Positions 2,577-44,140 of a stretch of DNA of 64,000 nt are shown one piece after another. The position numbers and the translations under genes were made by a program. The stretch's first letter is position 1. Each line of letters opens with the position of its first letter. The notes under the pieces were generated by a model. It was not told where the DNA came from. It made no database searches and saw only the letters and a list, made by a program, of their open reading frames with translations. Source of the DNA: a virus; the IMG/VR virus record IMGVR_UViG_3300023281_001622, positions 1-64,000 of that record; one strand, 5' to 3'.

Positions 2577-3115
2577 AGTTTTTACACATACCAAAAACAG
2601 CAGGGCAAAGTGTTGCTGAAGCTATGGGCAGCTCTGCAAGTTATCTGAGGCATAAACGTGTTAGTGAGGTGCAAAGTAATGACGACATTATGACTGTTGT
2701 TCGCAACCCATATGATCGTGCTGTAAGCTCTTATTACTACCTAAAAAACCTACAAGGTGATGCACCGATAATGCAGGATTTATTTCAATCGTTAAACGGG
2801 TTTTGGGATAAGATATACAACGCGCCTAAGAGTGGCATCGAACATAAACACATGAAACCTCAGATGTGGTTTATAGGAGATGAGGATGGCAATGTATCAT
2901 CACAAATCAAAGTTTTGTTGAGATATGAGACACTTGAGCAACAGTTCAAACAGTTAGCTTTGCAAGAAGGTTTTGCTGAATTGCCTGTCATTAACGCATC
3001 TAAGCTTAGACCAAACACACATTGGCAGAATGAGTTGAGCGAGGAATCCATTACACAGATCGGAGAGTTGTATGCAGACGACTTTGAACACCTCAACTAC
3101 GAAAGGATAAGCTAA
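2573..3115 (+). CDS. Sulfotransferase family protein
   Basis: Predicted to transfer sulfate from PAPS to a sugar or other hydroxyl. The N-terminus carries HIPKTAGQSV, the 5'-phosphosulfate-binding loop of carbohydrate sulfotransferases. About 50 residues in is VVRNPYDRAVSSYYY, matching the RNPydRavSsyy 3'-phosphate-binding motif. At 180 residues it is at the short end of the family. The ATG at 2573 was chosen because it overlaps the upstream stop as ATGA and puts the PAPS loop at residue 5; an ATG at 2561 would add four residues. It is translationally coupled to the Ser-rich protein, which suggests sulfation of phage or host surface glycans. Confidence 0.8.
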   Translation: MKFLHIPKTAGQSVAEAMGSSASYLRHKRVSEVQSNDDIMTVVRNPYDRAVSSYYYLKNLQGDAPIMQDLFQSLNGFWDKIYNAPKSGIEHKHMKPQMWFIGDEDGNVSSQIKVLLRYETLEQQFKQLALQEGFAELPVINASKLRPNTHWQNELSEESITQIGELYADDFEHLNYERIS

Positions 3116-8673: not shown

Positions 8674-9267
8674 TCACTCTTTGCTTAGCCAACACGTTGC
8701 TGGGAACTTTAGATCTTCGTTTTCATCATTAGCCACTTCCTTGGGTAGATGCACTTTAGCTTTAAGCTGACAACCACACACATTGCATCCCCTCAGTTGA
8801 TCGTCGTGCTTTGTGCTGGCTCCTTTTGTTGCTTTGAGAAGCTTGGGTATGAGGCCTGAGCAGCCCATACAGCCCTTGATAGGGACATTATTGGGGCACG
8901 TGGTGCATATCTTTGCTCTTTTATCAGCAACATCTTGTTCTACTAGCTCTCCCCCGCTCGCTATGAAGTTTTGCACTGTTTTGAGGAATCTAGCCACTTC
9001 ATTTCTTCCGATATGTTTTGCTACTGGAGCCTTGTCTTCACTTGGAGCTCCTGAATCTTCGCACATTGAGGCATAACCTGGGTTGTTACATATGTCTTCT
9101 TGCACTCTGTCAAAGAACCCATGCTGTAGATCCCCCCCGTTTTGTTTGCGTATTTTAATGATGTTTCTGATTAAGCTTTGAATATTTGAGCTGCTTATTG
9201 CTTGTGAGCCAGTTTCGTACCAGATAACAGGTTTGCTGAACTTTTTTGTTTGTTTTAGTCGTTTCAT
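8674..9267 (-). CDS. Cys-rich zinc-binding-type protein, paralogue of the 35.8-kb gene
   Basis: Unrecognised family. The C-terminal half has ICTTCPNNVPIKGCMGCS, then GCNVCGCQLKAKVHLP and a final CW, so eight or more cysteines in C-x2-C, C-x2-C and C-x2-C-x-C spacing, a probable two-metal zinc or Fe-S module. The gene at 35811-36392 shares this module almost residue for residue, plus a QNGGDLQ-like segment in the N-terminal part. This gene is alone on the minus strand between plus-strand operons and converges with the sulfotransferase (6-bp gap). Function unknown. Confidence 0.7.
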   Translation of the reverse strand: MKRLKQTKKFSKPVIWYETGSQAISSSNIQSLIRNIIKIRKQNGGDLQHGFFDRVQEDICNNPGYASMCEDSGAPSEDKAPVAKHIGRNEVARFLKTVQNFIASGGELVEQDVADKRAKICTTCPNNVPIKGCMGCSGLIPKLLKATKGASTKHDDQLRGCNVCGCQLKAKVHLPKEVANDENEDLKFPATCWLSKE

Positions 9268-11758: not shown

Positions 11759-14700
11759 ATGTTAGAAGAAGACAATGAGCAAGATGATGACCTGGATCTA
11801 GAAGTTGAGCAACCAGACCCTTTGACCCCACTTAGGGAGAAGAAACTCACTTTTGAGGACATAGCTACACGTCCAGAGTTTCAATCGGCTGATCTAGACA
11901 CTCGCTTAGGGTATATTGACAACTTGGCTAAGCACAACAAGTCCCTGTTTGAAGGGCAGGATGCTGAGGAGGATAATCTTTATATAGATGCTCAAACACA
12001 GCTACAACAGAGGCTAGTGAGCTCTGCTGATGCAATGAAGAACGCTCCCGAGTGGAGCAAGGAGCATCACAAGATGAGCTACGATACGCTCGTAGAGTTT
12101 TACGACTCAGACAAGACTCAAGAGGACTTTGATAAGTTTGAGTATCAGCAGGCTGAAGTGAATCAAAACTTAAGAATGGGTGAGTATAGCCAATACTTAA
12201 AACCACTCAAGTCTGGTGCTGATTCCGTAGAGATGGAAGTGGGTGGTGAAGTGGCGTCTCTTACAGACTTCTCTGATGCTAAAAGCAGGGTTGAGAACGG
12301 AGAGTTTGTATACTTAGCCACAGACGATTACATATCTAATACAGAAGACGGCTACATTGATCCTGACATGCCAGCTAACATTGGTAGGGCATATGATGCT
12401 GAGAATGACGTATGGAATGAGGATGTAACACTCAATAACGTCAAGCGCATGAGTGCTGATGAGGAGGTGAAATGGGCTGAGGATATCGTCAATGCAATAT
12501 CTGGAATTGAAGACGTCGAGACTTTGCAGTCTAAGATAGTTGAGATGGGTGCTACTAGATCCCAGATCACAAAGCGTGTTGGTATGGGCTTACTGTCTCT
12601 GAATACTGGCGAATACTTACTCAACTCGCTTTATGATGATTCGGCTATGTCATCTGAATACGGCAGTGAAGATGATTTCAATGAGTTTTTATCACGTAGT
12701 CCCGAGGCGTCAGAGAAGTATAAGCAGGCAGTAACACGATACAACTCTCGCAATGGAGAGAACTCTTTTTATGTTAAGCCATTACAGTGGTTGGGCAACA
12801 CAGCTGTCGATATTTTAGGAGATGATGTGGATTCTGCTGAGTTAGCGGCCTTCGGCAATCTTCAACAGCAGTATGCACAAGACTGGGTGTCTCGCAACAA
12901 AGACAAAGCTGGGGTCACTCGTGATGACATTAAGGCGGTGTATGGTGAGGAAGGTAACATCAAGAAGGATTTAGGGGTCACTGGTTGGCAGGAGCTTAAA
13001 GAAACATGGCGCGGTGCTATACAGAACGCTTTTGGTAGCACAATTGGTATTGTTGGAGGTGCTGGGGGTGGTTTAATTGCCCGCTATGGTGATGAGACTT
13101 CTGCATTGGCTGACAAGATGCTTAGATTAAACACCCTCTCTGCCAAGGATTGGTGGTCTGGGCTTAAGCAAAACTTTAAGGGCGCTACTTTCGAAGAACA
13201 TAAAAAACACGAGAGCAAGGTTGATAAAACATTCTTTGAGTGGCAGTCACATTACGACAACAAGCCAAGACACATGAATGCTGAGCAGCAGGCTGCTTGG
13301 GAGGCAGAGACCACAGTTTTGGTGGATAGACTTGCCGAAGAGTCAATGGCGCGTGCTACGGCTTATTTTGGTGATGAAGCTGGCAATGTTGATGATTACA
13401 ATATTCTGAAGACTCCTGATCTTTTGGCAGAAGCTTCGGCTTATGCGTCTAATGCCAATCCTAAGTCTCTGGAGCGCATGCAGTCTATCTTGAGAGTGAA
13501 CCCCACCACTCGAGGATACAGGAACGAGAGAGATGACTTTGCTCTGTCATTGGGCACTGACGGAATGAATAAGTTGGCACAAGGTTACTTTGGTGGTCAC
13601 ACAGCTGGTTGGCAAGAGCTTGGCGTAGAGGTGGCTTCAATGGCAACTGGTTATGCAGGAGCTAAGATGATCTTGAAGGCACGCAAGGCTACTAGGTTTG
13701 CCACCTTGGCTCAAACAGCTCCTAAAGAGGCTGTACAGAAGATGTTGAAGCAGGATGCTTTGATGCTTACTAAGAAAGGTAAGTTCATCAAGGCAGCATC
13801 CCGTGCGAAGTATCCAGCTGCATTGATCCCCGCTTCATTGGCTGAGGGTGCAGAGGAAGGTGTTGTTGAGCTGGGCAACCCAGACATTACATGGGATAGC
13901 TTCAAGCATGCGGTGAAGCAAGGTATGATGGGAGGCGCTGGTTTGGGTGTTCCTGTCACTGCTATTGCTGCCCACCAAACCATTAAAAACGAACAAGCTA
14001 ATCGTGATTTTGTATTAGGAGAGAAGCTTGGTGAGTTGGTGGTGGAGGAACGCGATGCAATTATTGGTAAGCTCATAGAATCTGATGCGAACTTAACTGC
14101 CGAGGCTCTTTACGACGCTGAAGATGCTAGACAAGAAATCAGATCCAACACAATCAGTGTCGATGACTTGGAGTTTACACAGTCTGAGCGTGCTGCTCGA
14201 TTTGAGGATGCACGCGGCAACTATCAAGAAGCAAAGAAGGCATCGGATGCTGCTCCGCAGGATGAAGCACTAAAACAAGAAGCTGCTGCGGCTTTCACTT
14301 ATGCTGTAACGGCTAAGCAGATGTATGAGGAGTCCACTCAGGCACTGATTGATGCTGGTAAGATAGATTTACAGTCTAAAGAAGGTGCGGTGAATCCTGG
14401 AGATACAAAGTCTTCTCCGAAAGCTACACAGGCACGTTCATCAAGCTTACCCGCCACTTCTCTGCCTGTAGCAGAACAGAAAGGAACTGGCGGGAAAGGG
14501 ACAGGATCTAGCAAAAGCAATCCCACTGTTGATAATCTCTCTGATAGTGCTGAAACAAGGCTGGAAAACGAGCAAGATGAGTCTGCTTGGCAGGAGGCTA
14601 AATCAAAATACAACATCACTTTTGTGGAAGGTGGTCGCAAGCAAACTGCACAGGCTTTTATGAAGGCTGCACAGCAGATTCAAAGAGATTTGAATAGCAA

Positions 14701-17700
14701 GGATCCATCTGTTGTTGAAGCTGCTAGGAATGAAGCGCGGGTGTTGGGCGCTAAGCAAAGAGCACGCGCAAAATACGCACGTAAAACGGGAGGCGATGCA
14801 GTGGCGGGTATTATTGCTGAGGAAGCTGATAAGTTTGAAGCTCTTGCTTCTGGGTCAACGACATCCCCTGCACAAACACAGGACACAACCCCGCCTACAC
14901 CTACACCTCCACCTACAGTGACTGCTGAAGAGCGAGCTGCTGAGGATGCTCGTATTGATCAGGAGGCGGGCGAGGCAACAGCAGAGACTGATGCACCTGA
15001 AGTTCAACGTCCTGGGTCACGTTTGAAGGTGACTAAGAAGAAAGCTGTTAAGCAAGAGCCTACGACAACACCGCAGGTTGGGGAAACAAGGACTGTCTAC
15101 AAGCCTGACGGAACGCCTGTCGAGGTGAGTGTTACCGCTGTAAGCGACAGTGGAGCGTATAGGGGCGACACGCAAAGTGGAGAGAACATCTTGGCTTCAG
15201 GCGTTGATCATTTTGAACAAAACCCAACAACTGAAGACAGGGCAATTGTTTCATCTGATATAAGCACTACCAAGAAGTTTCAAGGCGTTAAGATGTCGGA
15301 GCTTTCTGATGCTGATTTAGCAACTGCTGATAATGTTCTTACTGAGAGGATTGCAAAAAGGCCTAATGGTAAACAAGCTGCTGATTTTGCTAGTAGAGCG
15401 GACTTAACAGCTATTAAGGCTGAGGTGGCACGAAGAGCTTCAGCCACTTCACAGGACACTGTTGGCATTGCTGAACCTGAGACTTCTACGCAGGAAGAAC
15501 CAGCTTTTGTGAATCTCCTACTCAATGCAGAACAAGAGCGCGAGCAGGAATCTTCTGGTGTTGCTTCTGTCAGTGCAGAACAAGAGCGCGAGCAGGAGTC
15601 TAATGATTCTTCAGAATCTGATAGTGTTGATGTTTTAGATACACAGCACAACAGTTTGTCTGATGCTGTAAAGATAGCTACGGATGTGTTGGATGCTCCA
15701 CAAAATGAAGAGCAAACGGGAGTAAGCTTTAAGGCTATGGTGCAATCTATGGCGCCAGGCTTAGACTTGTCTAATATTGATGTTCAATTCACAGATGGGG
15801 ACACCACTTTAGGGATTGTTCCTTATGCCTATGCAGACGGACGACAAGCTGATAAGTATACAATTAAGGTTTCAAGAAAGTGGAGAGAACGTTTAGCCAA
15901 GCATGTTGGTGTTGATGATTATTCTAAAGCCACTCCAGCTCAGAAGCGCTTGGTTGCTCTGTGGGTGGCACGTGCTGTTGATGAGGAAACACGACACGTA
16001 GTTCTCTTTAAAAACACAACACCAGAGCAGCGTGCAGAGATAGCTAAGGATATTCTCGCGGATAAGAAGGCCGTTGAAGTGTTGGGCTTGTATTTTAAAA
16101 GGGAAGGTTCTCTCGAGCAACAGGAGAACGAAGATGATGCAAACTTCCATAACCGCATTGTTGCTGAGTTCATAAACATCGTGCAACAACGTGCTGTATA
16201 CGGGTTGAGCAACTCGGAGTTCATGAACATGGTGGCTGGTCTTTCTGACTCGGTAAGAAAGTTTGTCAGCAGTATATTGCAGCAATTAAAAGCTTATTTG
16301 ACTGGCAGGCAGGATGTAGAATACTCCCCTGTTGTCCAAGATCACATCAATAAGTTGAACAAAGCAATTGATGTCGTCATGCGTGATAAATCGGCACAGG
16401 TGCAGAATGTTCTTCCGACAGAAGAGTTCGTGCCAGCTAAGTTTGATTATCTTCCTCAGCGTGGGGTTGAGCAAGAGCAAGATTTAGAATTAGATTACCT
16501 GCGCAGCGTTAATGATTCGCTGTTGCGTCCTGTAGCTGGGGCTGACTTGGATACGATTGATGGGGCTTTTGGTGTGAATGCACAGGGCAATTTGTTTATT
16601 AGACTTTCAGCTCAGGTGTTGAAGCAAGTTCAGGCTAGGCTTGCAGATGTGGAGGCAATGAAAGCTCTACAATTAAAAAGAGCATTTCCAAGTCTTGCAA
16701 CAGTTGTTGCTAATTTTAATAGCCGTAAGGTTTTTGTTAATGCTGTGTCTATCATTGTTGATTACACTAAAAGTGCTTCTGTAAAGGCAGATGTTATCTA
16801 CAAGAGATACACTAATGCCGTGCATAGTTATAGGAGTGCTTACGATAAGTGGCAAGCCTTGCATGAAGACAAGGTCGCTGAGGCTGCCCCATTGAAGGCA
16901 GCTTACGAAAAGTCAAAGTCCGAGGGCAAAGAAGACACGGATTTATTAGATGAATGGTTGCGGGTTGTAGATGATCCAGCTGTGGATCAGGCGCGTAGAG
17001 GCGTGGAGAGGTTGCATACTGAGTTGCTTCTAGCAGAGAATGCTATGCCCAAATCTTTTAGGCGAGCTATGTCTACAGTGATGCAGGTTGCTGGTTTGGC
17101 TAAGTCAGCCCCTTCTGTTGAATATCTAAAACAACGTGGTTTGGCACTAGGCGCTTCGGTTGAAGCACGACTGGAAAGACAGGCTTTGAGAGAGAGAGCT
17201 TTGCAGGCTGTTAAGCCTATGATTCGATTTTTTGAGAACCTAAACTTAACCCCTTTTCTGGGAAACAGCATAAGAAACCATGCTCCTACAAAAGCTCTGA
17301 TGCGTTTCAATGATGGCAACTTGGACATTGCTGAACTGGGCTTTTTGATGAGCAGGCTAGCTAGGCAAGAAGTGTTTGTCACTATCACTCCACGCATGGT
17401 GGCTGACATGATCGGAGTCAAGAATCGCATCATAAGGATGCAGAAGGAAGGTGGCAAATACGACACTAAGAATGATGTTATTTTGAAACGTATTGACGCT
17501 GTTTTAGATCACAAGATTGTAAAGTCTATGGATCAGTCTGAGATTGATCGTCACTATGCTTCTGATGTTTTTGCTAGTGACAACTTTGGAACGTCCGTGT
17601 TTTTCCTGAGAAAGGATGATACTTTGCGGAAAGATGGAAAGATATCGTATCAGCTCAGCCCTCAGCATTTGGGCGAGTTCGAGGCTGAAGCTTTTAATCA

Positions 17701-20700
17701 GAAACGTGCCGCTGATGTGAGATATACGATGGGAGCAAACTACTCTGGTCGCATACACAGAGCACACAAGTTGGGTAATATCAGCTTAACTTACAAACAA
17801 GCCGTTGAGCGAGGTGATCCAGCAGCTCCACTCACTATAGGCTTGGAGGGCACATCACGAAAGAGTGAAGGAGCTCCAGCTTTGTTGCAGGCTATTGCGG
17901 ACACTTTGTTGGTAGACGAGATGGGTGTGCCCAACGACAATAAAGCTGACGCTAATAAAGTTGCTATCCCTTTTCCTGGATACATTAAAAAAGGGGCTAA
18001 GAATCCAAACATACAACTTGAGTGGACTAAGGCTATAGGGAAGTTTTTTAGGCTTATTAGCGCACAAAACTTAACTGACGAGCAGAAATCATTACACCCA
18101 GTTTCACAATATGCTGACGCCATCCTAGAGTTGGCTATACAGCACTATAAGAACCCTTCTATTTACAACTACAACAACCTGATGTTTAGGGTTATGAACC
18201 TTTCTGACTTGGTTGTTGAGATGAAGAAACAGGTTGTCAATCAACAGCAGTCAATTGGCGAGTATCGTTTAGATTTCCGTATGTTGGAGAACATTGAGAG
18301 GCAGGTGCAGAAAGCCAATGTTTCAAACATAAACCCATTACAATTAGAGCAGTTGTTGGATACCAATACCAGTGTCGATGCGGCCACCGCAGTGATATAC
18401 AAGGAAGGTGAGAGCAGTGAGTTGTTTACAAACAAGGACGACAGTAACAAACAGACTGAATTGAATGAACAAGCTCGTGTTCATGGCTTGGATTACAAGT
18501 CTACTGAAAAAGAGGCAGCGCAGAAACGTAGCTTGATGTTGGCTGTTCTGTTTGATTTAGACATCCGCAAAGCTAAAGATTGGGCCGCTGGATTCAACTC
18601 AACACGCGCTTTGGATGCACATCTGTTCGAGAAGTTGGACGATGCTGTTGTCATGTATAACTCTACAACTACTTCCACTGAGAGAATACAGCTTGCTGAG
18701 TTGCTAGGGGCTGTAACCATGACCGAGGGGCGCAATGCTGACTTTTATACAGCTTTGCGAGGCATGTCCGAAGAACGACAGCTGCAAGCATTGAGAACGG
18801 CTCTTGAACTAGACAAAGAGCAACTTAATTCGGGTGGTTGGAGCAAGTCTTCTGTTGCTTCCTTGATCGAGCACTCACAGTCTGAACAGGCTATCGTCGG
18901 CTTGAAAGGCAAAGGTAGCTACGGCAAGGTGGTTATGACTCGTCTCCTTGATTACATACAGCGTTACAATTTGGATGAGGTTTTCATTACATCTTTCATC
19001 AACAACGGCAAGGAACACAGACGAGTGGTAGGTGGTGTGACAACACTTGAACACCTGATGGAGCAGACAGGTCGAAAGAGGGCTGTTGTTAATAATATCA
19101 TTGGGATAATGAAGGGCGTAAGGCGTGCTCGTGCTGACGTTAATCAACTTACACAGGACATTACAATACAGGAAGCCAAGATTAAAGAGCTCACTGATAA
19201 AGGTATTACTGAGAAAGAACTAGATGACGCTGCAAACTTGCAGGTCATTGGGAGTTACATAATGAACCTGCCTCCTGGAAAGGTGGATACCCCTACATTC
19301 AGGAAGTTGTTTGGTCGTGTAGGGGCTCTTGATAGCACTGAATCCACTACGCAGGAGTTTCTGGGGTCTTTGCTGTCAGAAAAATACGGTGATGTGACAG
19401 TTGTTGTTTACGATGCTAGTGGGCTCAACAAGAAAGACGTTGGTTATGAGACTAATCACTTATTATTGAACGAAGCTGGCGAGGTGAAGGCTATTTTGAT
19501 GGAAGGGGTTGATGGACACTTCTCTACTGGAGCTGAGAAGATTGTCAGTCAATTGACAGTGCATGCTTTGCAGGCTGGTCTCACTGAGGAAACAACACAC
19601 TCACTTGACAACTTGAAGCTTGCTCTTGATCAATACTTCGCAGGTGATTTTATTGAAGTTCAGACTCAAGCTGAGGTAAGGGCTTTGATGGAGATGCAGA
19701 CCAAGGTGACTACATTGGATGAGTCTATTTTTGATGACTACAAGCAGAGATCACACCATTGGCAAGTGAGGCAATTAGAGTCTATCAATGCTGACTTAGC
19801 TAAAGTTATGGGCTGGGGCAAGGCTACTGGTGATATGTATACGCACTTCAGCGAAATGTCTAATGTGGACTTTATTATGGCTACTTTGCTTAACGACAGG
19901 ATGAGGCACTACGTCGGGCATATAGCAGCAGGCAACACTACTTTTAACGCTACATCTTCTGCAATTAGTGAGGAGTCTATTGCGAACGCAAATACGTATC
20001 TGGAAGTGGGTAAATTTGATGCCTTCTCGGCTGATAACTCAGCTATTGAGCAAGACATGCTGTCTAATGTTGGCGAGGAACTAACTGATGAAGAGTCTGC
20101 TAATTTAGGTGCTGGAGCATCTGCTGATACACAGTTTGGCATTTCTCCAGGCACAACATATCTTTCTACCTACTATAAGGATGACAGCGCAGTGAGCGTG
20201 TTCCCTCAAATTGTTGGCTTTGCGTTTGATATGATTGCTGCTAGCGACGCGGTGGCTGCAACACCTTCAATAGATTACAAAGGACAAAGGGACGCACAGT
20301 CTGATTCGATTCCTTCAGCACACAGTGTAACTGACTTCTTTGATTACACGTTCAAAGAGAAGCAAATCAAAAAGTCAAAGCAAACAGCTCGTGAAAGGAT
20401 TTGGTTTGGTATAGCGGAATTTAATAAAGAAGACCGCTGGGTTTCTATAAATCATACGAATTACGCAACTCCTGACTCGGGCCTTGTGAATAGCACTGAG
20501 TTACGCATGTATCGTGACGCAAAAAGAGCTGCTTTAGAGGTGTATGATGCCTTTAAGGCTAAAATTGATGATCTCAGAAAAACTCAAGAGTCTATAGCAA
20601 AGGCGCTTGCAGATTATGATGTTAGCGACACGCCGTTTTTCATCGTTGATCCTACAGACATGATGCATGCTCACTTGAAGCGGGATTATGCAGCAGTAAC

Positions 20701-23700
20701 TGCTCGTCTAAGTAGAGCTGAGTCTTCATTAGCTGGTAGGTTACGTGACGACTACGCTGAAGGCAAAGCCATTGAAGTTGGCTTAGAACAATACGAGACA
20801 CGGGTGTTGCAGGAGCGCAGCTACAATCGCAGAGCGTTTAAGAATAACCAGCAGTCTAAAGAGATGGCTGTGCAGAGCTCACTGTATAAATCCCCTAGTG
20901 ATTTCAATTTACAATTACAGTCCACTGTCGATCGTATTTTGCAACAAAGCAACAAGCTCGTTGATGGGGACGTGAATAACCGTTATGCTGAGGAGGAAAG
21001 CGTGCCTTTGCCACAAAACGTGGTGAACATAAATGACGACGCAAGCACTTCAGGGTCTGTAGTGCCACAGGTGACTGGATCAAATACTGGTAATGCTGTT
21101 CCTTCACACAGTGCTGTTCCGTCTGTGTCTGGAGTGGAGCAATCCCCACAGGCTGAGATCGAGGCTGAGGAATACACGCAGAGGGTGAAGAAGCGTCTCT
21201 ACAATACAAATGGTAGATACAAAAAGCTTATGGATGAGTCTCCCAATCACCCACAAGCTGTTGAGGTGAATGGTCTTATTTCTACGTTGGCTGATATAGC
21301 TACCAATAAGTCATTTAGGATGGAGGTGCGCAATCAGGCTAACTCCACTTTATCCTCTTTGATAGGAGGCAAGTGGTCGCAGTTTTCTAGTAATGCCAAT
21401 TACCTCAGGAGCTTATCACAAGCGCCAGCTATTATAGATCAGGTTGTGGATGGTCTTAATTTGAAACACAAATCAATTAAAAATAATCCTATATTCCGAC
21501 ATCAACAAGCAGGGATAGCAGACTTGTTTAGTAAAACCAATCAAGCTTTCAAGAGAGGCTTTATGATGATGGGTGAGCAAGACTTCGGTGTGCATGGCAA
21601 TGCTGGACGTATGCCATACAAGGTGAAACAGACCGATCTTACAGACAGGTTCACCAAAAGCTCTAACCGAGCAGGTGCTTTGTTTATGACACAGGCTTAC
21701 GTAGGGACTTTGATAACCAACGTGTCCAAAGGTGGGGCTAAGCAACAGAGAAAACAGGTGTTTCGCAACATGTCTGCTCTTATGGAGGGTGCTATAATTA
21801 ATATAAATAATGCCAAGTTTTTAGACAGGGAAACATTACAGCTGTCGGAGTATGCGCAAGATATTATAAACAAGGCTTTGTCATGGTTTGAGGCTAATGC
21901 AAAAGCCACACCACAGCAATTGCATGATTATTTAATGTCCACGCTGAAGGGCGAAAAAGCGGAGATAGCTAAAGGTGTTATTAAAGAAGCTGTAGAGTTT
22001 TTCCAAGCTAACCAAGCAGGCACTGAAATCAGAGCGGCTTTTCATGGTAAGGAAGTTGGAGCGTATGAACGATACCTGCCATACCGAGGGTTCGATTTGA
22101 ATAAAACTGCAGATCTAGGTTTGGATGGTGTTAATGCCGAGCAGTATGTTGATGTCAGTAAGTCTTTTGAGCGTTCACGTTTTGAGTTGAATGATGCTGA
22201 ACAAACTAGAGGTTTGGACTTCAATGCTTTGCGAGCAATTTTGTCAGGAACAAATGCCCAGCTTTACCATGCTTATACACATGATGCCCTTACAAAGGCT
22301 AGGTATGACTTTGGTGGTCTCGGAGTGCATTCAGGTATCAACTCCGCTATTCGCGCACAAGCAATGGCAGACAAGACTCTTAGTAGAGAGCAACAAAACG
22401 CATTGATACAGATGAGTGCCACCATGGCACAGGAAGTGGAGCGACAGCGTTTTAACGATTCCAGCCATAACCCACACGCAGGCAAAGTGCTTAATATTGC
22501 TAATAGCGCAGGGTCTGCTGGTTATGCAATTACGCTTTCAAGTTTACAGCAGGCCTTCTTACAAACTGTCCCAGGATATCTGGCTTATGTGATTAACCAC
22601 CCTATAAAAGGGGCAAAGCTCACAAAGAACCTGATTAAAATGGCATTTTCATTCACACAGGGACAGTCTAATCGTTTGGTTGGGTCTAGTTTTGATTCTT
22701 ACTTTGATGATGTCAGTGGTTTTATTAAGCAGATTGCGCCTGAGATTTATGCTCGTGGTGTTGATGGTATTGACGAATTGAAGCACGGAGCGAGTAAGTT
22801 GAACATGAATGAGATTCATTCTTTGACTGATGCCACTCTTGCTGCGGGAACACTCCCCTTCAAAGCAATGAAGACTTTGATGGATTTAGTGTTGCACGCC
22901 ACTACAGGAGCGCCTGATGCGTTTTTAGTGAGAGCTATTTATGCTACAGAGTTTGAAGCTCGCACTGGAAGGACTATTGGTTCCGACACATTTGACAACA
23001 TTACTGCTACAGATATAGAAGCCGCTATCATGTCAGATGTAATAGCATTGGATATTATGGCTCAGTCTGATTCTGGTAAAAAAGGTGACTTTTTCCAGCC
23101 TGTTCAGCGAGCGGATAAGGCTGGGGCAGCTCTTGAAGTGTTACGCAAATCCGCGGGGGTTTACGCTAACCATCTGCTCAGTAAATCTGCTATGCTGCCA
23201 GCTGCTTTTTCCATGTTGAGATCTAAGGATATGAAGTTGCAGGGTGCACGTATTATCTCTGATTGGACATTGCAAATTGTCTTGTTTAACGCACTGAAGA
23301 TAAGGAGTATTGCTTATCTTACTGGTATTGTTTTGACAGGCAAACCTAATGATGAAGATGAATGGGATGATCTCAATGCTAAGTTGGCATCGGGTGAGGG
23401 TCTTACGACGGATGAACAGAAGAGACACGCTTCATTGAAGGTTGAATTTGATGCCTATGATCAGGCTGTGCTGGAGAAACAAAATTCTGTTTTGGAGGCG
23501 TGGCATTCGGTTCCTGGCACTGGGAACAAGTCAAAACTATGGACAGGAGATGATTTCATGTATTCGGTGGGAATAAAATCTGCTGTTGAAATGACTGGTA
23601 TGCTCACTCCAGTAATGGCGATACCAGAAATTAATGGCTTGGTGTTGGATGGAGTGAAAGGGCTTACAGCTCGGGCAACTGGTATTGACTATGCAGGTCG

Positions 23701-24724
23701 TGGTTCGAAACGAGTTACTGATGATTACACTAGATTCACTGACAAGATGGGTGCTCCTGGTAAGTTTGTCAGTAATCTGATCGTCTCAGGTTCTCATTAC
23801 GCTATGGCTCAATCCGATTATGAGATGAGTTATGATGATGTGTTATTGGGCTTGTATGCTTTTGGTGGTCTTAGGGAGTCTAGGGCGGCAGTTCAAGATC
23901 GAGTGATAGATAAAAACAATTCATACTACCATGTTAAGAAACATAGATCTGCTCCTGGATTGTTTGAGCATCGTCCACAAGCATTGCGTTTTCATAAACT
24001 GATGGATAGACCTACTGGATTGAATGATTTTTCTCTGGTTCACCATCCTGCTTCTCGTGTCGACATGAACATGTTTGAAGGCATGAAAATTGAGGAAGTT
24101 GATTTGTTGAATCGCCCATATAACGATGGTGATTCTATGCAGATGTCCACTGGGTTTTTGAAGAGCACGAATTACCGCTTAGCTATGATTGACACCTTGG
24201 AAACGAGTGGTAAATCGAAGGTTATGCTCGACAGGGTGTATGGTCAGGCACGTGCTACAGGGATAGAGCCTACGAACATTATTCCTACTGGTAAGAAACA
24301 AAGTTACATCACTCAGCACGCGCATGTCACTGCTGACAGGGTGTTTATTGTTCATGACAACAAGGTGGGCTTTGAGCGTGACAGAAAGAGCACTGAGCGA
24401 GTGGATGCTATCATGTTGGTTGAGAAGGATAACGTCTTATACGATCATGGGTTGAGCATGGCTTACAATGGCGATGCTAGTATCACCTACTACGGCATCA
24501 GCCGTTTACCGAAGCAGGTTCAGAAAGAATATAGGGAACGCTACAAGCGAGCTGATGAGGTGCAGAAGAACGGCAGTTTGGGCACGATCAATTCAGCGAG
24601 ATCGAAAAAGAACCCGAGAACACAATCACAGCAATCACAGCAATCTAAGGTTAAATCACCGAGTGTGAGGAGTGATCCACGGGGTGGTCGTGATTTGCGG
24701 CTACTAAGGCGTCTGGGTCGATAG
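11759..24724 (+). CDS. Giant virion-associated (ejection or polyvalent-type) protein, 4,321 aa
   Basis: One uninterrupted 13-kb frame. An N-terminal third with mixed helix includes a small-residue hydrophobic stretch near residue 425 (FGSTIGIVGGAGGGLIARYG) and LAEGAEEGVVELG near residue 700, a glycine-acidic element common in giant phage ejection proteins. A Thr/Pro-rich linker with low-complexity acidic repeats lies around residues 880-1320 (AEQEREQES occurs twice). Degenerate metalloprotease-like His segments follow (VDEETRHVVLF near 1410; GLTEETTHSLDNL near 2615), then long helices and a Lys/Arg-rich C-terminus. No RNA polymerase DxDxD or T-x-x-G-R motif was found. It probably enters the cell with the DNA and may form the transenvelope channel; enzymatic parts remain unproven. 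Confidence 0.6.
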   Translation: MLEEDNEQDDDLDLEVEQPDPLTPLREKKLTFEDIATRPEFQSADLDTRLGYIDNLAKHNKSLFEGQDAEEDNLYIDAQTQLQQRLVSSADAMKNAPEWSKEHHKMSYDTLVEFYDSDKTQEDFDKFEYQQAEVNQNLRMGEYSQYLKPLKSGADSVEMEVGGEVASLTDFSDAKSRVENGEFVYLATDDYISNTEDGYIDPDMPANIGRAYDAENDVWNEDVTLNNVKRMSADEEVKWAEDIVNAISGIEDVETLQSKIVEMGATRSQITKRVGMGLLSLNTGEYLLNSLYDDSAMSSEYGSEDDFNEFLSRSPEASEKYKQAVTRYNSRNGENSFYVKPLQWLGNTAVDILGDDVDSAELAAFGNLQQQYAQDWVSRNKDKAGVTRDDIKAVYGEEGNIKKDLGVTGWQELKETWRGAIQNAFGSTIGIVGGAGGGLIARYGDETSALADKMLRLNTLSAKDWWSGLKQNFKGATFEEHKKHESKVDKTFFEWQSHYDNKPRHMNAEQQAAWEAETTVLVDRLAEESMARATAYFGDEAGNVDDYNILKTPDLLAEASAYASNANPKSLERMQSILRVNPTTRGYRNERDDFALSLGTDGMNKLAQGYFGGHTAGWQELGVEVASMATGYAGAKMILKARKATRFATLAQTAPKEAVQKMLKQDALMLTKKGKFIKAASRAKYPAALIPASLAEGAEEGVVELGNPDITWDSFKHAVKQGMMGGAGLGVPVTAIAAHQTIKNEQANRDFVLGEKLGELVVEERDAIIGKLIESDANLTAEALYDAEDARQEIRSNTISVDDLEFTQSERAARFEDARGNYQEAKKASDAAPQDEALKQEAAAAFTYAVTAKQMYEESTQALIDAGKIDLQSKEGAVNPGDTKSSPKATQARSSSLPATSLPVAEQKGTGGKGTGSSKSNPTVDNLSDSAETRLENEQDESAWQEAKSKYNITFVEGGRKQTAQAFMKAAQQIQRDLNSKDPSVVEAARNEARVLGAKQRARAKYARKTGGDAVAGIIAEEADKFEALASGSTTSPAQTQDTTPPTPTPPPTVTAEERAAEDARIDQEAGEATAETDAPEVQRPGSRLKVTKKKAVKQEPTTTPQVGETRTVYKPDGTPVEVSVTAVSDSGAYRGDTQSGENILASGVDHFEQNPTTEDRAIVSSDISTTKKFQGVKMSELSDADLATADNVLTERIAKRPNGKQAADFASRADLTAIKAEVARRASATSQDTVGIAEPETSTQEEPAFVNLLLNAEQEREQESSGVASVSAEQEREQESNDSSESDSVDVLDTQHNSLSDAVKIATDVLDAPQNEEQTGVSFKAMVQSMAPGLDLSNIDVQFTDGDTTLGIVPYAYADGRQADKYTIKVSRKWRERLAKHVGVDDYSKATPAQKRLVALWVARAVDEETRHVVLFKNTTPEQRAEIAKDILADKKAVEVLGLYFKREGSLEQQENEDDANFHNRIVAEFINIVQQRAVYGLSNSEFMNMVAGLSDSVRKFVSSILQQLKAYLTGRQDVEYSPVVQDHINKLNKAIDVVMRDKSAQVQNVLPTEEFVPAKFDYLPQRGVEQEQDLELDYLRSVNDSLLRPVAGADLDTIDGAFGVNAQGNLFIRLSAQVLKQVQARLADVEAMKALQLKRAFPSLATVVANFNSRKVFVNAVSIIVDYTKSASVKADVIYKRYTNAVHSYRSAYDKWQALHEDKVAEAAPLKAAYEKSKSEGKEDTDLLDEWLRVVDDPAVDQARRGVERLHTELLLAENAMPKSFRRAMSTVMQVAGLAKSAPSVEYLKQRGLALGASVEARLERQALRERALQAVKPMIRFFENLNLTPFLGNSIRNHAPTKALMRFNDGNLDIAELGFLMSRLARQEVFVTITPRMVADMIGVKNRIIRMQKEGGKYDTKNDVILKRIDAVLDHKIVKSMDQSEIDRHYASDVFASDNFGTSVFFLRKDDTLRKDGKISYQLSPQHLGEFEAEAFNQKRAADVRYTMGANYSGRIHRAHKLGNISLTYKQAVERGDPAAPLTIGLEGTSRKSEGAPALLQAIADTLLVDEMGVPNDNKADANKVAIPFPGYIKKGAKNPNIQLEWTKAIGKFFRLISAQNLTDEQKSLHPVSQYADAILELAIQHYKNPSIYNYNNLMFRVMNLSDLVVEMKKQVVNQQQSIGEYRLDFRMLENIERQVQKANVSNINPLQLEQLLDTNTSVDAATAVIYKEGESSELFTNKDDSNKQTELNEQARVHGLDYKSTEKEAAQKRSLMLAVLFDLDIRKAKDWAAGFNSTRALDAHLFEKLDDAVVMYNSTTTSTERIQLAELLGAVTMTEGRNADFYTALRGMSEERQLQALRTALELDKEQLNSGGWSKSSVASLIEHSQSEQAIVGLKGKGSYGKVVMTRLLDYIQRYNLDEVFITSFINNGKEHRRVVGGVTTLEHLMEQTGRKRAVVNNIIGIMKGVRRARADVNQLTQDITIQEAKIKELTDKGITEKELDDAANLQVIGSYIMNLPPGKVDTPTFRKLFGRVGALDSTESTTQEFLGSLLSEKYGDVTVVVYDASGLNKKDVGYETNHLLLNEAGEVKAILMEGVDGHFSTGAEKIVSQLTVHALQAGLTEETTHSLDNLKLALDQYFAGDFIEVQTQAEVRALMEMQTKVTTLDESIFDDYKQRSHHWQVRQLESINADLAKVMGWGKATGDMYTHFSEMSNVDFIMATLLNDRMRHYVGHIAAGNTTFNATSSAISEESIANANTYLEVGKFDAFSADNSAIEQDMLSNVGEELTDEESANLGAGASADTQFGISPGTTYLSTYYKDDSAVSVFPQIVGFAFDMIAASDAVAATPSIDYKGQRDAQSDSIPSAHSVTDFFDYTFKEKQIKKSKQTARERIWFGIAEFNKEDRWVSINHTNYATPDSGLVNSTELRMYRDAKRAALEVYDAFKAKIDDLRKTQESIAKALADYDVSDTPFFIVDPTDMMHAHLKRDYAAVTARLSRAESSLAGRLRDDYAEGKAIEVGLEQYETRVLQERSYNRRAFKNNQQSKEMAVQSSLYKSPSDFNLQLQSTVDRILQQSNKLVDGDVNNRYAEEESVPLPQNVVNINDDASTSGSVVPQVTGSNTGNAVPSHSAVPSVSGVEQSPQAEIEAEEYTQRVKKRLYNTNGRYKKLMDESPNHPQAVEVNGLISTLADIATNKSFRMEVRNQANSTLSSLIGGKWSQFSSNANYLRSLSQAPAIIDQVVDGLNLKHKSIKNNPIFRHQQAGIADLFSKTNQAFKRGFMMMGEQDFGVHGNAGRMPYKVKQTDLTDRFTKSSNRAGALFMTQAYVGTLITNVSKGGAKQQRKQVFRNMSALMEGAIININNAKFLDRETLQLSEYAQDIINKALSWFEANAKATPQQLHDYLMSTLKGEKAEIAKGVIKEAVEFFQANQAGTEIRAAFHGKEVGAYERYLPYRGFDLNKTADLGLDGVNAEQYVDVSKSFERSRFELNDAEQTRGLDFNALRAILSGTNAQLYHAYTHDALTKARYDFGGLGVHSGINSAIRAQAMADKTLSREQQNALIQMSATMAQEVERQRFNDSSHNPHAGKVLNIANSAGSAGYAITLSSLQQAFLQTVPGYLAYVINHPIKGAKLTKNLIKMAFSFTQGQSNRLVGSSFDSYFDDVSGFIKQIAPEIYARGVDGIDELKHGASKLNMNEIHSLTDATLAAGTLPFKAMKTLMDLVLHATTGAPDAFLVRAIYATEFEARTGRTIGSDTFDNITATDIEAAIMSDVIALDIMAQSDSGKKGDFFQPVQRADKAGAALEVLRKSAGVYANHLLSKSAMLPAAFSMLRSKDMKLQGARIISDWTLQIVLFNALKIRSIAYLTGIVLTGKPNDEDEWDDLNAKLASGEGLTTDEQKRHASLKVEFDAYDQAVLEKQNSVLEAWHSVPGTGNKSKLWTGDDFMYSVGIKSAVEMTGMLTPVMAIPEINGLVLDGVKGLTARATGIDYAGRGSKRVTDDYTRFTDKMGAPGKFVSNLIVSGSHYAMAQSDYEMSYDDVLLGLYAFGGLRESRAAVQDRVIDKNNSYYHVKKHRSAPGLFEHRPQALRFHKLMDRPTGLNDFSLVHHPASRVDMNMFEGMKIEEVDLLNRPYNDGDSMQMSTGFLKSTNYRLAMIDTLETSGKSKVMLDRVYGQARATGIEPTNIIPTGKKQSYITQHAHVTADRVFIVHDNKVGFERDRKSTERVDAIMLVEKDNVLYDHGLSMAYNGDASITYYGISRLPKQVQKEYRERYKRADEVQKNGSLGTINSARSKKNPRTQSQQSQQSKVKSPSVRSDPRGGRDLRLLRRLGR

Positions 24725-27976: not shown

Positions 27977-28179
27977 ATCAGTGTGTTTATTGTGAGTTCG
28001 TACATCAGATCGTTTTTTGTTCCTAACTCATCGAGTTGTTCTTCTGTGGCTATTTCACCATCCACTAGGGCATAGTCTAGAAATGCATCACAAAAGTCTG
28101 GATAGTCTGATGGGTCGATTCCATCTATAACTGCGTCGCTTATTACGACGTCTTTGCCTTGTAGGTTGGTAATCATCAT
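27973..28179 (-). CDS. Hypothetical acidic early protein (68 aa)
   Basis: Very acidic (DAVIDGIDPSDYPDFCDAFL and onward), with few basic residues. Small acidic proteins of this kind in phage early regions are sometimes DNA mimics or host inhibitors, but no family is recognised. It is the first gene after the structured RNA region; its leader contains an AGCTC/GAGCT hairpin. Confidence 0.5.
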   Translation of the reverse strand: MMITNLQGKDVVISDAVIDGIDPSDYPDFCDAFLDYALVDGEIATEEQLDELGTKNDLMYELTINTLI

Positions 28180-28199
28180 AGTGATTTTGGGTTTGGTTT

Positions 28200-28490
28200 T
28201 TTAGCTCTTGTTGAGCTCAAAGATAAATTACTACGGGTGATAGGCCGTTTGTCCTTCGTTACAGGACTCGTACTATTTCAGATGTATCTTGTGGGAATAG
28301 TGGCCTAGATTTGCCACCCACAATTAAGAGATAGTTCCTATTCTAGGCACGCCTTCTCTTAATACATCACTCACCTTCCTGCCTCTTTTACAACAGAGGA
28401 CGCCTCGTAGTGACTCTTCTAGGGGTGGGCGTAGTTTCCCTCCATGCCAATGAATAGTTTAGTTGCCTAAACAGCTTCACGCCCCCTCAG
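28200..28490 (-). ncRNA. Putative structured RNA of unknown class (about 290 nt)
   Basis: No gene fits in this gap, yet it is packed with stems. On the minus strand: GTTTAG-GCAA-CTAAAC, a 6-bp stem with a GNRA loop (28457-28472), nested inside GGGCGT/ACGCCC (28427-28432 with 28479-28484); CCTCT/AGAGG (28382-28399); TTAAGAGA/TCTCTTAA (28324-28331 with 28355-28362) enclosing AGGC/GCCT; GTGGG/CCCAC enclosing TGGC/GCCA (28291-28321); and GTCCT/AGGAC (28251-28267). The GNRA loop is formed only by the minus-strand RNA, the direction of the flanking genes. It does not match RNase P, tmRNA or 6S core motifs by eye. It could be a riboregulator, a long leader or a decoy RNA. Confidence 0.6.
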
Positions 28491-28496
28491 AAATTG

Positions 28497-28775
28497 TTAT
28501 TTGTCAGATGGCTTTTTTGTCTTCCAAGATAGCTTACCTAGGCATCTGACGAATAGGTAGTAACTTGTTGCTATCACTTCCCAGTATAGGGAATGTTTGG
28601 ATTGTCGTATCATGTGCATGAGAAACCTGGTGTCTGCTTCTGCTCTGTCATACTTGTCTGTTTCGTAGTCAAGATCGTGTATTTTGCAGCTGGCGTTGAA
28701 CTTAACACTAAGTATTTTTCTGATTAACTTAGGTGTCCACCAAGCGCCACAGTGATAGGTTTCTTTGCTTTTCAT
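28497..28775 (-). CDS. Phospholipase A2-like protein
   Basis: Residues ~30-55 read CKIHDLDYETDKYDRAEADTRF, matching the His-Asp catalytic dyad and following Ala-Asp-x-x-Phe of PLA2 domains (parvovirus VP1 has H-D-x-x-Y ... A-D-x-x-F-I). The HD plus a later Asp are what the reaction needs; the usual Gly-rich Ca loop Y-x-G-P-G is not clear, only HCGAWWTPK. A hydrophobic helix follows (LYWEVIATSYYLFVRCLG), so it may be membrane-bound. An early phage PLA2-like protein could act on host membrane or in lysis. Not verified. Confidence 0.55.
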   Translation of the reverse strand: MKSKETYHCGAWWTPKLIRKILSVKFNASCKIHDLDYETDKYDRAEADTRFLMHMIRQSKHSLYWEVIATSYYLFVRCLGKLSWKTKKPSDK

Positions 28776-35779: not shown

Positions 35780-35808
35780 TTGACTTATGTTATCTATTAA
35801 GATATATC
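35780..35808 (+). promoter_or_regulatory. Sigma70-like promoter for the plus-strand Cys-rich gene
   Basis: TTGACT (35780-35785), a 17-bp spacer and TATATC (35803-35808) lie just before ATGs at 35811 and 35817, so the transcript would be nearly leaderless. The 44-bp divergent gap also serves the minus-strand operon, where a TATACT box on the opposite strand (35773-35778) may be its -10. Confidence 0.55.
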
Positions 35809-35810
35809 TA

Positions 35811-36392
35811 ATGTATATGTGTGGTAGATATAATACAAACAAAAACTTCCCTCGCCCATACACGTGGAATGAACAGGGAGAGTCACTTACAGTAAAAACT
35901 CTTGGTGAGTTATTAAGATTTGTTTCTGCTGTCAGAATACAGCGTGGAGGTGATTTACAGCCTGGATGGCAAGATCGCATTTGTAATCAGATATGTGAAG
36001 ATCCCATCATGAAATTCAACTGTTCTCAAACAGGTGGACATGATGTCAGGGAGATACAAGCATCTGATGTAAAACGCTTTTTCACTACAGTTGCCAAATG
36101 GGCATCTGATGGTGGCACTATGGTGGATTCTGGGGAAGCAGAACGAAGGGCTAGTATATGTGCTGCCTGTCCACAGAACGTGCCTATACGGGGGTGTATG
36201 GGCTGTTCTACTATACTACCAAAACTGTTGAAGGTTATTGGTGGTGCGACTACTAGCAAAGACGCACTCTTAAAGGGCTGTAAAATTTGTGGTTGTGAAC
36301 TTAAAGCTAAGGTTCACTTGCCATCTGACGTGATGGTGGATGGAGAATCTAATTTTCCAGAGCATTGCTGGATTAGGACGGAACAGGAGTAA
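35811..36392 (+). CDS. Cys-rich zinc-binding-type protein, paralogue of the 8.7-kb gene
   Basis: Shares with the 8674-9267 protein the module ICAACPQNVPIRGCMGCS, a PKLLKVIGGA segment, GCKICGCELKAKVHLP and a final C-W, plus GGDLQPGWQDRICNQICEDP in the N-terminal half. At least nine conserved Cys suggest two metal sites. Start at 35811 chosen from the promoter position; 35787 and 35817 are alternatives. It is alone on the plus strand and converges on the primase-helicase (6-bp gap), so both paralogues sit as single genes against the local direction, like independently expressed morons. Function unknown. Confidence 0.75.
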   Translation: MYMCGRYNTNKNFPRPYTWNEQGESLTVKTLGELLRFVSAVRIQRGGDLQPGWQDRICNQICEDPIMKFNCSQTGGHDVREIQASDVKRFFTTVAKWASDGGTMVDSGEAERRASICAACPQNVPIRGCMGCSTILPKLLKVIGGATTSKDALLKGCKICGCELKAKVHLPSDVMVDGESNFPEHCWIRTEQE

Positions 36393-38323: not shown

Positions 38324-39040
38324 TTATTTTACGTTTTTGTAAACTTCCAGATTAGGTTCTATCTGAAGGACGATTTTTTGTTTGCTTATTAAATCGTCTG
38401 TAAGGGCGTTCTCTTTTACTTTTGTTACTATTTCGTTGAAAGACACGCATATGTATAGCGGCTCTTTCTCTTTCTTGGCGTCTTCGATGGCATTAAGCAC
38501 ATCCATTGCGTCGAGATCTTCAAGCAGATCCACTTCGTCTTTTTTGACGAGGGATGTTAGTGCTCTTGTCTCTTTCACTGTGAGTTTGTGCTCTAGAGCT
38601 TTTTGGAGAATCAAAGATTTTTGTTCATCACTTAAACCTTTGGCGTAATGAACTTCTTTGTGGTGAGTGAAGGATAATCCCTCTACTCGCCTGTCTCCCC
38701 ACCCTAGAAACACAGACTCACTTGTCATCAGCGTGTGATAAGATTTGTCAGTAGCTTCGATTACAAATGATGGGTCGTAGTTATCACCGAAATGATCACG
38801 ACACACCAAGACGATGTTACCTAGCAACCAACATGATTGATCTTCAATATAGTTGGCTGCGTCTTTTAGGTTTACGATTAGATTAGTGACACTATAGCAT
38901 TCTTCTAGTGTGGGTGGATTATGTTGATCAATTACCCATTTTTCATCGTCGTATACGAAGTTTGATGCCAGCTCTACTGCCACTGTGTCGATAGCAGTGG
39001 AGCTGTTTAGTGCTGTGATTGGGTTTATAGCGTTACTCAT
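38324..39040 (-). CDS. ParB/KorB-related DNA-binding-type protein
   Basis: Residues ~60-170 carry a pattern common to ParB-related mobile-element proteins: SCWLLGNIVLVCRDHFGDNY, a SFVIEATDKSYHTLMTSES helix pair, then LSFTHHKEVHYAKGLSDEQK and LTVKETRALTSLVKK, where LTVKETRAL is ParB-like. No N-terminal ParB nuclease motif (GxRR) is seen. It is coupled to the upstream gene (TAATG) and lies three genes downstream of the ThiF/JAMM genes; ParB-related genes accompany ThiF in PRTRC cassettes, which supports reading this as part of that cassette. Confidence 0.55.
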   Translation of the reverse strand: MSNAINPITALNSSTAIDTVAVELASNFVYDDEKWVIDQHNPPTLEECYSVTNLIVNLKDAANYIEDQSCWLLGNIVLVCRDHFGDNYDPSFVIEATDKSYHTLMTSESVFLGWGDRRVEGLSFTHHKEVHYAKGLSDEQKSLILQKALEHKLTVKETRALTSLVKKDEVDLLEDLDAMDVLNAIEDAKKEKEPLYICVSFNEIVTKVKENALTDDLISKQKIVLQIEPNLEVYKNVK

Positions 39041-43813: not shown

Positions 43814-44140
43814 ATGCTATATGGTATTAGGGAGAGGGTAAGCTCAGTCGGATTTCTACCGACAATTGTGCAAGTTTATCTACTTACAGTGACTTTCGTT
43901 GACCGTGATCTTGACGATCTAGATCCACTAGCTACTCATCATGTGCATGAGCATTGAGTGGCATGCGTAGAACGTTCGTGTCGTTGGTGCTAGAAATGTG
44001 ACTGAATTTCGATAATCCGTAAGTCAACTTACACATATACGGATTCCTTCATTACAGTGATGTAATGTTGTCGTGCATATCATTCACTAGATGATGTGCT
44101 TTTTGGATATGAGCTTGGGAAATGATTACCAGTTTCTGGA
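43814..44140 (-). promoter_or_regulatory. Structured leader of the Ubl cassette
   Basis: No gene in this 327-bp gap. It holds a TCGGTA-N5-CCGA hairpin (43848-43862) shared with two other leaders; a large inverted repeat AATCCGTA...TACGGATT with TAAG/CTTA inside (around 44010-44035); an ATTACA-gtga-TGTAAT stem near 44054-44069; and GATTACCAGTT twice (44124-44134 and 44139-44149) around the stop codon of the upstream gene, operator-like. No clear -10/-35 was found on the minus strand. Confidence 0.5.

Follow-up and report, generated by a model that had tools for sequence, protein, structure and literature searches.

The window analyzed here, the first 64,000 nucleotides of a 73,156-bp virus record (IMGVR_UViG_3300023281_001622), carries amid the small minus-strand genes of its early region a 317-nt gap (28180-28496) that separates two minus-strand open reading frames (ORFs; Table 1). 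An earlier note on this DNA had described a gap of about 300 bp without a matching gene, and this description holds: the gap contains no ORF that reaches 40 aa, and ARAGORN reported zero tRNA or tmRNA genes in it. On the minus strand, neither a promoter nor a terminator was recognized inside the gap, which lies deep in an operon whose minus-strand genes start at about 46 kb. The region is rich in HNH genes, and none of the neighbors scored convincingly as part of a defense system. The ORF directly upstream bears in its 3' end a perfect 8-bp inverted repeat (GTCAGATG/CATCTGAC, 28504-28551), and its product, of unknown function, includes a CKIHDLDY stretch that by eye resembles the active-site motif of small phospholipases A2. 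Gene starts in the window almost never show a Shine-Dalgarno sequence and often follow an A-rich leader, which suggests a host that uses such starts, for instance a member of the Bacteroidota.

Table 1. Features of the gap and its flanks in window coordinates, with their counterparts in the related phage G039
Feature	Start	End	Strand	Description
Upstream neighbor	28497	28775	-	92 aa, phrog_6098, stop at 28497; absent as neighbor in G039
Whole structured RNA	28230	28492	-	About 263 nt; no ORF; folds better than shuffles; G039 homologue with compensatory changes
5' domain	28417	28492	-	Outer helix closes inner hairpin GUUUAG-GCAA-CUAAAC (28472-28457, GNRA loop)
Outer helix of 3' domain	28406	28411	-	ACUACG, pairs with 28230-28235 CGUAGU; G039 UCUACC/GGUAGA, 2 compensatory pairs
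Side hairpin	28382	28399	-	CCUCU-N8-AGAGG; G039 counterpart UUUC...GAAA in the same place, aligned by eye
Middle helix	28371	28375	-	GGUGA, pairs with 28236-28240 UCACC; G039 GGUAA/UUACC, 1 compensatory pair
P1 of three-way junction	28362	28368	-	GAUGUAU, pairs with 28281-28287 AUACAUC; G039 GAUACAU/AUGUAUC, 2 compensatory pairs
P2 hairpin	28325	28361	-	UAAGAGA/UCUCUUA; bears kissing strand GCCUAGA (28348-28342)
P3 hairpin	28289	28323	-	UUGUGGG/CCCACAA with UGGC/GCCA on top; bears kissing strand UCUAGGC (28309-28303)
Loop-loop (kissing) helix	28303	28348	-	7 bp, GCCUAGA/UCUAGGC; G039 GCUCAGA/UCUGAGC, 2 compensatory pairs
Downstream neighbor	27973	28179	-	68 aa, start at 28179; absent as neighbor in G039

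Folded as RNA, the gap is more stable than shuffled controls on the plus strand (-95.1 kcal/mol, z -3.3, 0 of 100 shuffles as good) and on the minus strand (-89.4 kcal/mol, z -2.2, 2 of 100), a comparison that the earlier note had singled out as able to refute its proposal of a structured RNA. Where that note counted at least six stems, at least nine of 4-8 bp are predicted with a pair probability above 0.75, and the GNRA hairpin that it saw nested inside a second helix is indeed present on the minus strand; the note named no strand and missed the loop-loop helix described below. Energy alone is weak evidence, since a sliding scan gave several coding segments of the same operon z scores equal to or below that of the gap. 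By far the strongest folding signal of the early region (z down to -6.8) falls in the coding region of a 238-aa protein (38324-39040). What settles the matter, folding energy being insufficient by itself, is a related phage in which a homologue of the RNA carries compensatory changes.

The window phage is an orphan among sequenced phages, as neither its 594-aa terminase-like protein nor its 774-aa portal-like protein, both named from size, gene order and sequence appearance and not by a profile library, has a match in 50,697 phage records. Searches with the 92-aa neighbor, or with the terminase alone, returned no relatives; an exonuclease-like gene led to 80 distant loci, and one record (G001) shared the portal-like protein at 36% identity. 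An alignment of these two portal proteins, used as a query, gave 21 loci, among them IMGVR_UViG_3300021957_000115 (hereafter G039), whose terminase and portal proteins are 52% and 47% identical to those of the window phage. A homologue of the RNA lies at 21400-21760 of G039, and the genes before and after it are unrelated to those that flank the RNA in the window. The two copies share 77% identity over 165 nt (E 7e-28) to 169 nt; permissive scoring extends the match to 209 nt at 74%. In a comparison of the whole records, this stretch has the highest nucleotide identity between the two phages (terminase 63%, portal 60%). G038, a near-identical sister of G039, stops short of the RNA region, judging by overlap.

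Two further features of these genomes were recorded in the course of the comparison. Two window genes in opposite orientation and nearly 30 kb apart (35787-36392 and 8674-9267) both match one G039 gene (39% and 35%), which gives them the look of paralogues or of a mobile gene. Positions 11759-24724 of the window are taken up by one ORF of 4321 aa, and an ORF of 15,258 bases in G001 is about 28% identical to it over 465 aa only.

The window and G039 copies differ by indels of 1, 2 and 4 nt that abolish any common reading frame, which, together with the lack of an ORF in the gap, indicates that the RNA is not protein-coding. It is likely read on the minus strand with the early operon. Both copies are co-directional with their surrounding genes, and the minus-strand reading is favored by a G-C to G-U change in helix P3b, by a U-G pair in the 5'-domain hairpin of G039 and by the energy of the G039 copy (-97.6 kcal/mol against -87.9 on the other strand). 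The window copy alone folds slightly better on the plus strand, a reading that we set aside given this G-C to G-U change and the better fold of G039.

Read in this direction, the RNA starts with a hairpin domain, after which comes a nested three-way-junction domain (28230-28411). In the 5' domain, G039 has a 9-bp helix (CUCAGGGUU/AACCCUGAG) that sits in the same place and likewise closes a small hairpin; the layouts are similar, and the sequences are too divergent for a confident alignment or a proof by covariation. The common structure of the 3' domain was derived from an alignment of the two copies (A5). Its 41 proposed pairs include seven double compensatory changes, the one G-C to G-U change and no breaks between window and G039. 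The weakest of the seven are the two in the outer helix, which was aligned by hand. When substitutions were shuffled among columns with the same base, 3 of 200,000 permutations reached seven double changes, and none combined seven with zero breaks. Within A5 itself, all 31 pairs are kept in both copies, five of them with both sides changed, against zero when the pairing partners are slid by 1-3 columns. A stem predicted in the window copy (AUAG/CUAU) is lost in G039 and lies outside the consensus. P3 is part of a 24-nt block, UUCUUAAUUGUGGGUGGCAAAUCU, that is nearly or wholly identical between the two phages, and further highly conserved blocks lie outside the helices (UGGCAAAUCU, GAAGGCGUGC and GGCCUAU.ACCC). 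Pairing in the loop-loop helix is in competition with the uppermost pairs of the P2 and P3 stems, so that the base pairs there may not all form simultaneously. With two arms of a three-way junction joined by this 7-bp helix, the RNA should adopt a compact folded shape.

The element matches no known family. Rfam 15, which covers RNase P, tmRNA, 6S, group I and II introns, ribozymes and riboswitches, as well as GOLLD and ROOL as far as they are included, gave zero matches on the window at curated gathering cut-offs; at E values up to 10, the window and G039 copies returned weak unrelated matches far below cut-off. The absence of RNase P, tmRNA, 6S and group I core motifs, reported earlier by eye, is thus borne out, and no common Rfam element accounts for the fold. 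An open-literature search of narrow range turned up no description of this RNA.

The family comprises two sequences, as the searches yielded no third member. A covariance model (R1) that scores the window copy at 176 bits and the G039 copy at 181 bits found nothing but G039 in 42 virus records; in relatives, searched over 680 kb with the default filters and over about 170 kb unfiltered, its scores stayed at chance level. Where portal identity was 29-36%, no relative gave a match above chance, filtered or unfiltered. A 15-nt core pattern had 52 matches in viral contigs and a gapped pattern of the 3' block had 24; in each case G039 alone was real, and the core pattern was absent from bacterial genome contigs. 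A hand-written descriptor of the three-way junction proved too loose for use. Comparison of both copies with known phages and plasmids by blastn gave nothing real, a 20-nt match of the G039 copy to a Sinorhizobium phage (E 4) being attributed to chance. With two members, each claim about a base pair depends on one comparison. Near relatives of the window may have been left out of the searched records, so that further members may exist.

As potential second copies, two more gaps were examined and rejected, as neither has sequence similarity to the RNA. The first, in the window (43814-44140), spans about 327 nt between ORFs of 97 aa and 105 aa and carries no gene on the operon strand; it has no Rfam match, and its predicted fold (z -2.7 on the minus strand, -0.5 on the plus strand) could be that of another structured RNA. 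The second, in G039 (20715-21088, or 2715-3088 of locus L115), is a 374-nt gap without a same-strand gene just upstream of the gene that precedes the RNA. It folds with a z of -3.3, ends in a strong terminator-like hairpin and has no convincing Rfam match.

We conclude with little room for doubt that the gap encodes a conserved, non-coding, structured phage RNA, as the earlier note had proposed, and its limits can now be placed at about 28230-28492 on the minus strand. What this RNA does is a matter for more cautious wording. From sequence comparison, we tentatively favor, at somewhat less than even chances, a phage RNA that is processed from the early transcript and acts in trans. The RNA would be cut out of this transcript, or would survive from it, and the folded molecule would target an RNA or protein of the host or the phage, in counter-defense or host take-over, rather than on one gene. 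An activity of its own is favored by the conservation of the RNA while its gene context turns over. The unrelated neighbors, together with the lack in the two phages of a conserved hairpin before the start codon or of a terminator 3' of the RNA, likewise argue for an RNA that acts by itself. Against a trans-acting molecule stand the lack of a recognized promoter or terminator of its own and a leader-like spacing, the RNA being followed by the next start codon after about 50 nt in the window and 44 nt in G039. It is also conceivable, if rather short of probable, that the RNA represents an undescribed class with an activity of its own, be it catalysis, ligand binding or the inhibition of a host defense or machine, that would be selected while the surrounding genes turn over.

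The strongest rival is a cis-acting leader of the downstream part of the early operon. Irrespective of which genes lie behind it, such a leader would govern their transcription (by put-like anti-termination), stability or translation. The RNA has the same orientation as the downstream genes and is separated from them by a similar short A-rich spacer in both phages; the missing terminator also fits a leader. The downstream proteins are unrelated between window and G039, which speaks against a leader, and yet would be tolerable for one whose target is the polymerase or mRNA decay. An expression platform is lacking, as no hairpin 3' of the element is shared by the two phages and an AGCUC/GAGCU stem after the window RNA has neither a U run nor a G039 counterpart. 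The location of the window RNA, away from the head of the operon, does not favor a leader either. A gene-independent cis element, active in anti-termination or mRNA protection, fits nearly as well as a trans-acting RNA, and a cis-acting role of some kind is a possibility to be taken seriously, if not an expected one.

A self-cleaving or otherwise catalytic RNA of a new class that would process the early transcript is unlikely. Its size, nested helices, loop-loop contact and conserved non-helical blocks resemble a catalytic core, but these blocks would equally suit the binding of a ligand or protein, and neither copy matches a known ribozyme family in Rfam. The resemblance to ribozymes suggested in the earlier note is thereby neither backed nor refuted. 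Still less likely is an intron-like or homing RNA-coding element that would move between related phages. Sequence similarity does end near the edges of the RNA, amid unrelated flanks in an HNH-rich region, and its position relative to the HNH gene differs between the two phages; the element however encodes no reverse transcriptase or endonuclease, and a group I or II intron was rejected because the RNA sits between complete ORFs with their own stop and start, interrupts no gene and matches no Rfam core. A chance fold of the gap with no RNA function would agree with z scores that are unexceptional for this operon, but is highly improbable, since a phage whose proteins are about 50% identical has a 77% identical homologue that shows seven compensatory changes. 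It is already refuted unless this homologue was recently transferred and the double changes stem from misalignment.

Several known RNAs offer points of comparison. GOLLD and ROOL are large structured RNAs often found in phages and prophages, and are longer than the roughly 263 nt of the window RNA. Like them, it is a structured non-coding phage RNA with multiple stems, loop-loop contacts and no tie to a single gene; unlike them, it has no Rfam match, and its helices and conserved blocks are different. The put sites, the anti-terminators of phage HK022, are short two-stem elements near the operon start. The window RNA shares with them a structured nature, a place in a phage early transcript and a putative independence from the genes that follow; compared with this general description of put, it differs by its length, its three-way junction and its location deep in the operon. 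The phi29 pRNA is also a phage RNA that combines loop-loop pairing with a junction, whereas here the loop-loop helix forms within one molecule, the location is the early region and no Rfam match is found. Purine-type riboswitches likewise have a three-way junction with two arms in loop contact, but the window RNA matches none in Rfam, its junction strands are almost absent, and it has no expression platform and unrelated downstream genes.

To our knowledge, large structured non-coding RNAs of phages are few and mostly unexplained. For the RNA described here, compensatory changes support a consensus fold that includes a tertiary loop-loop helix, and the DNA that encodes this RNA is more conserved than the terminase and portal genes of the same phages. 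It thus gives probing of structure, deletion and pull-down experiments a defined target, and provides the seed of a new RNA family.
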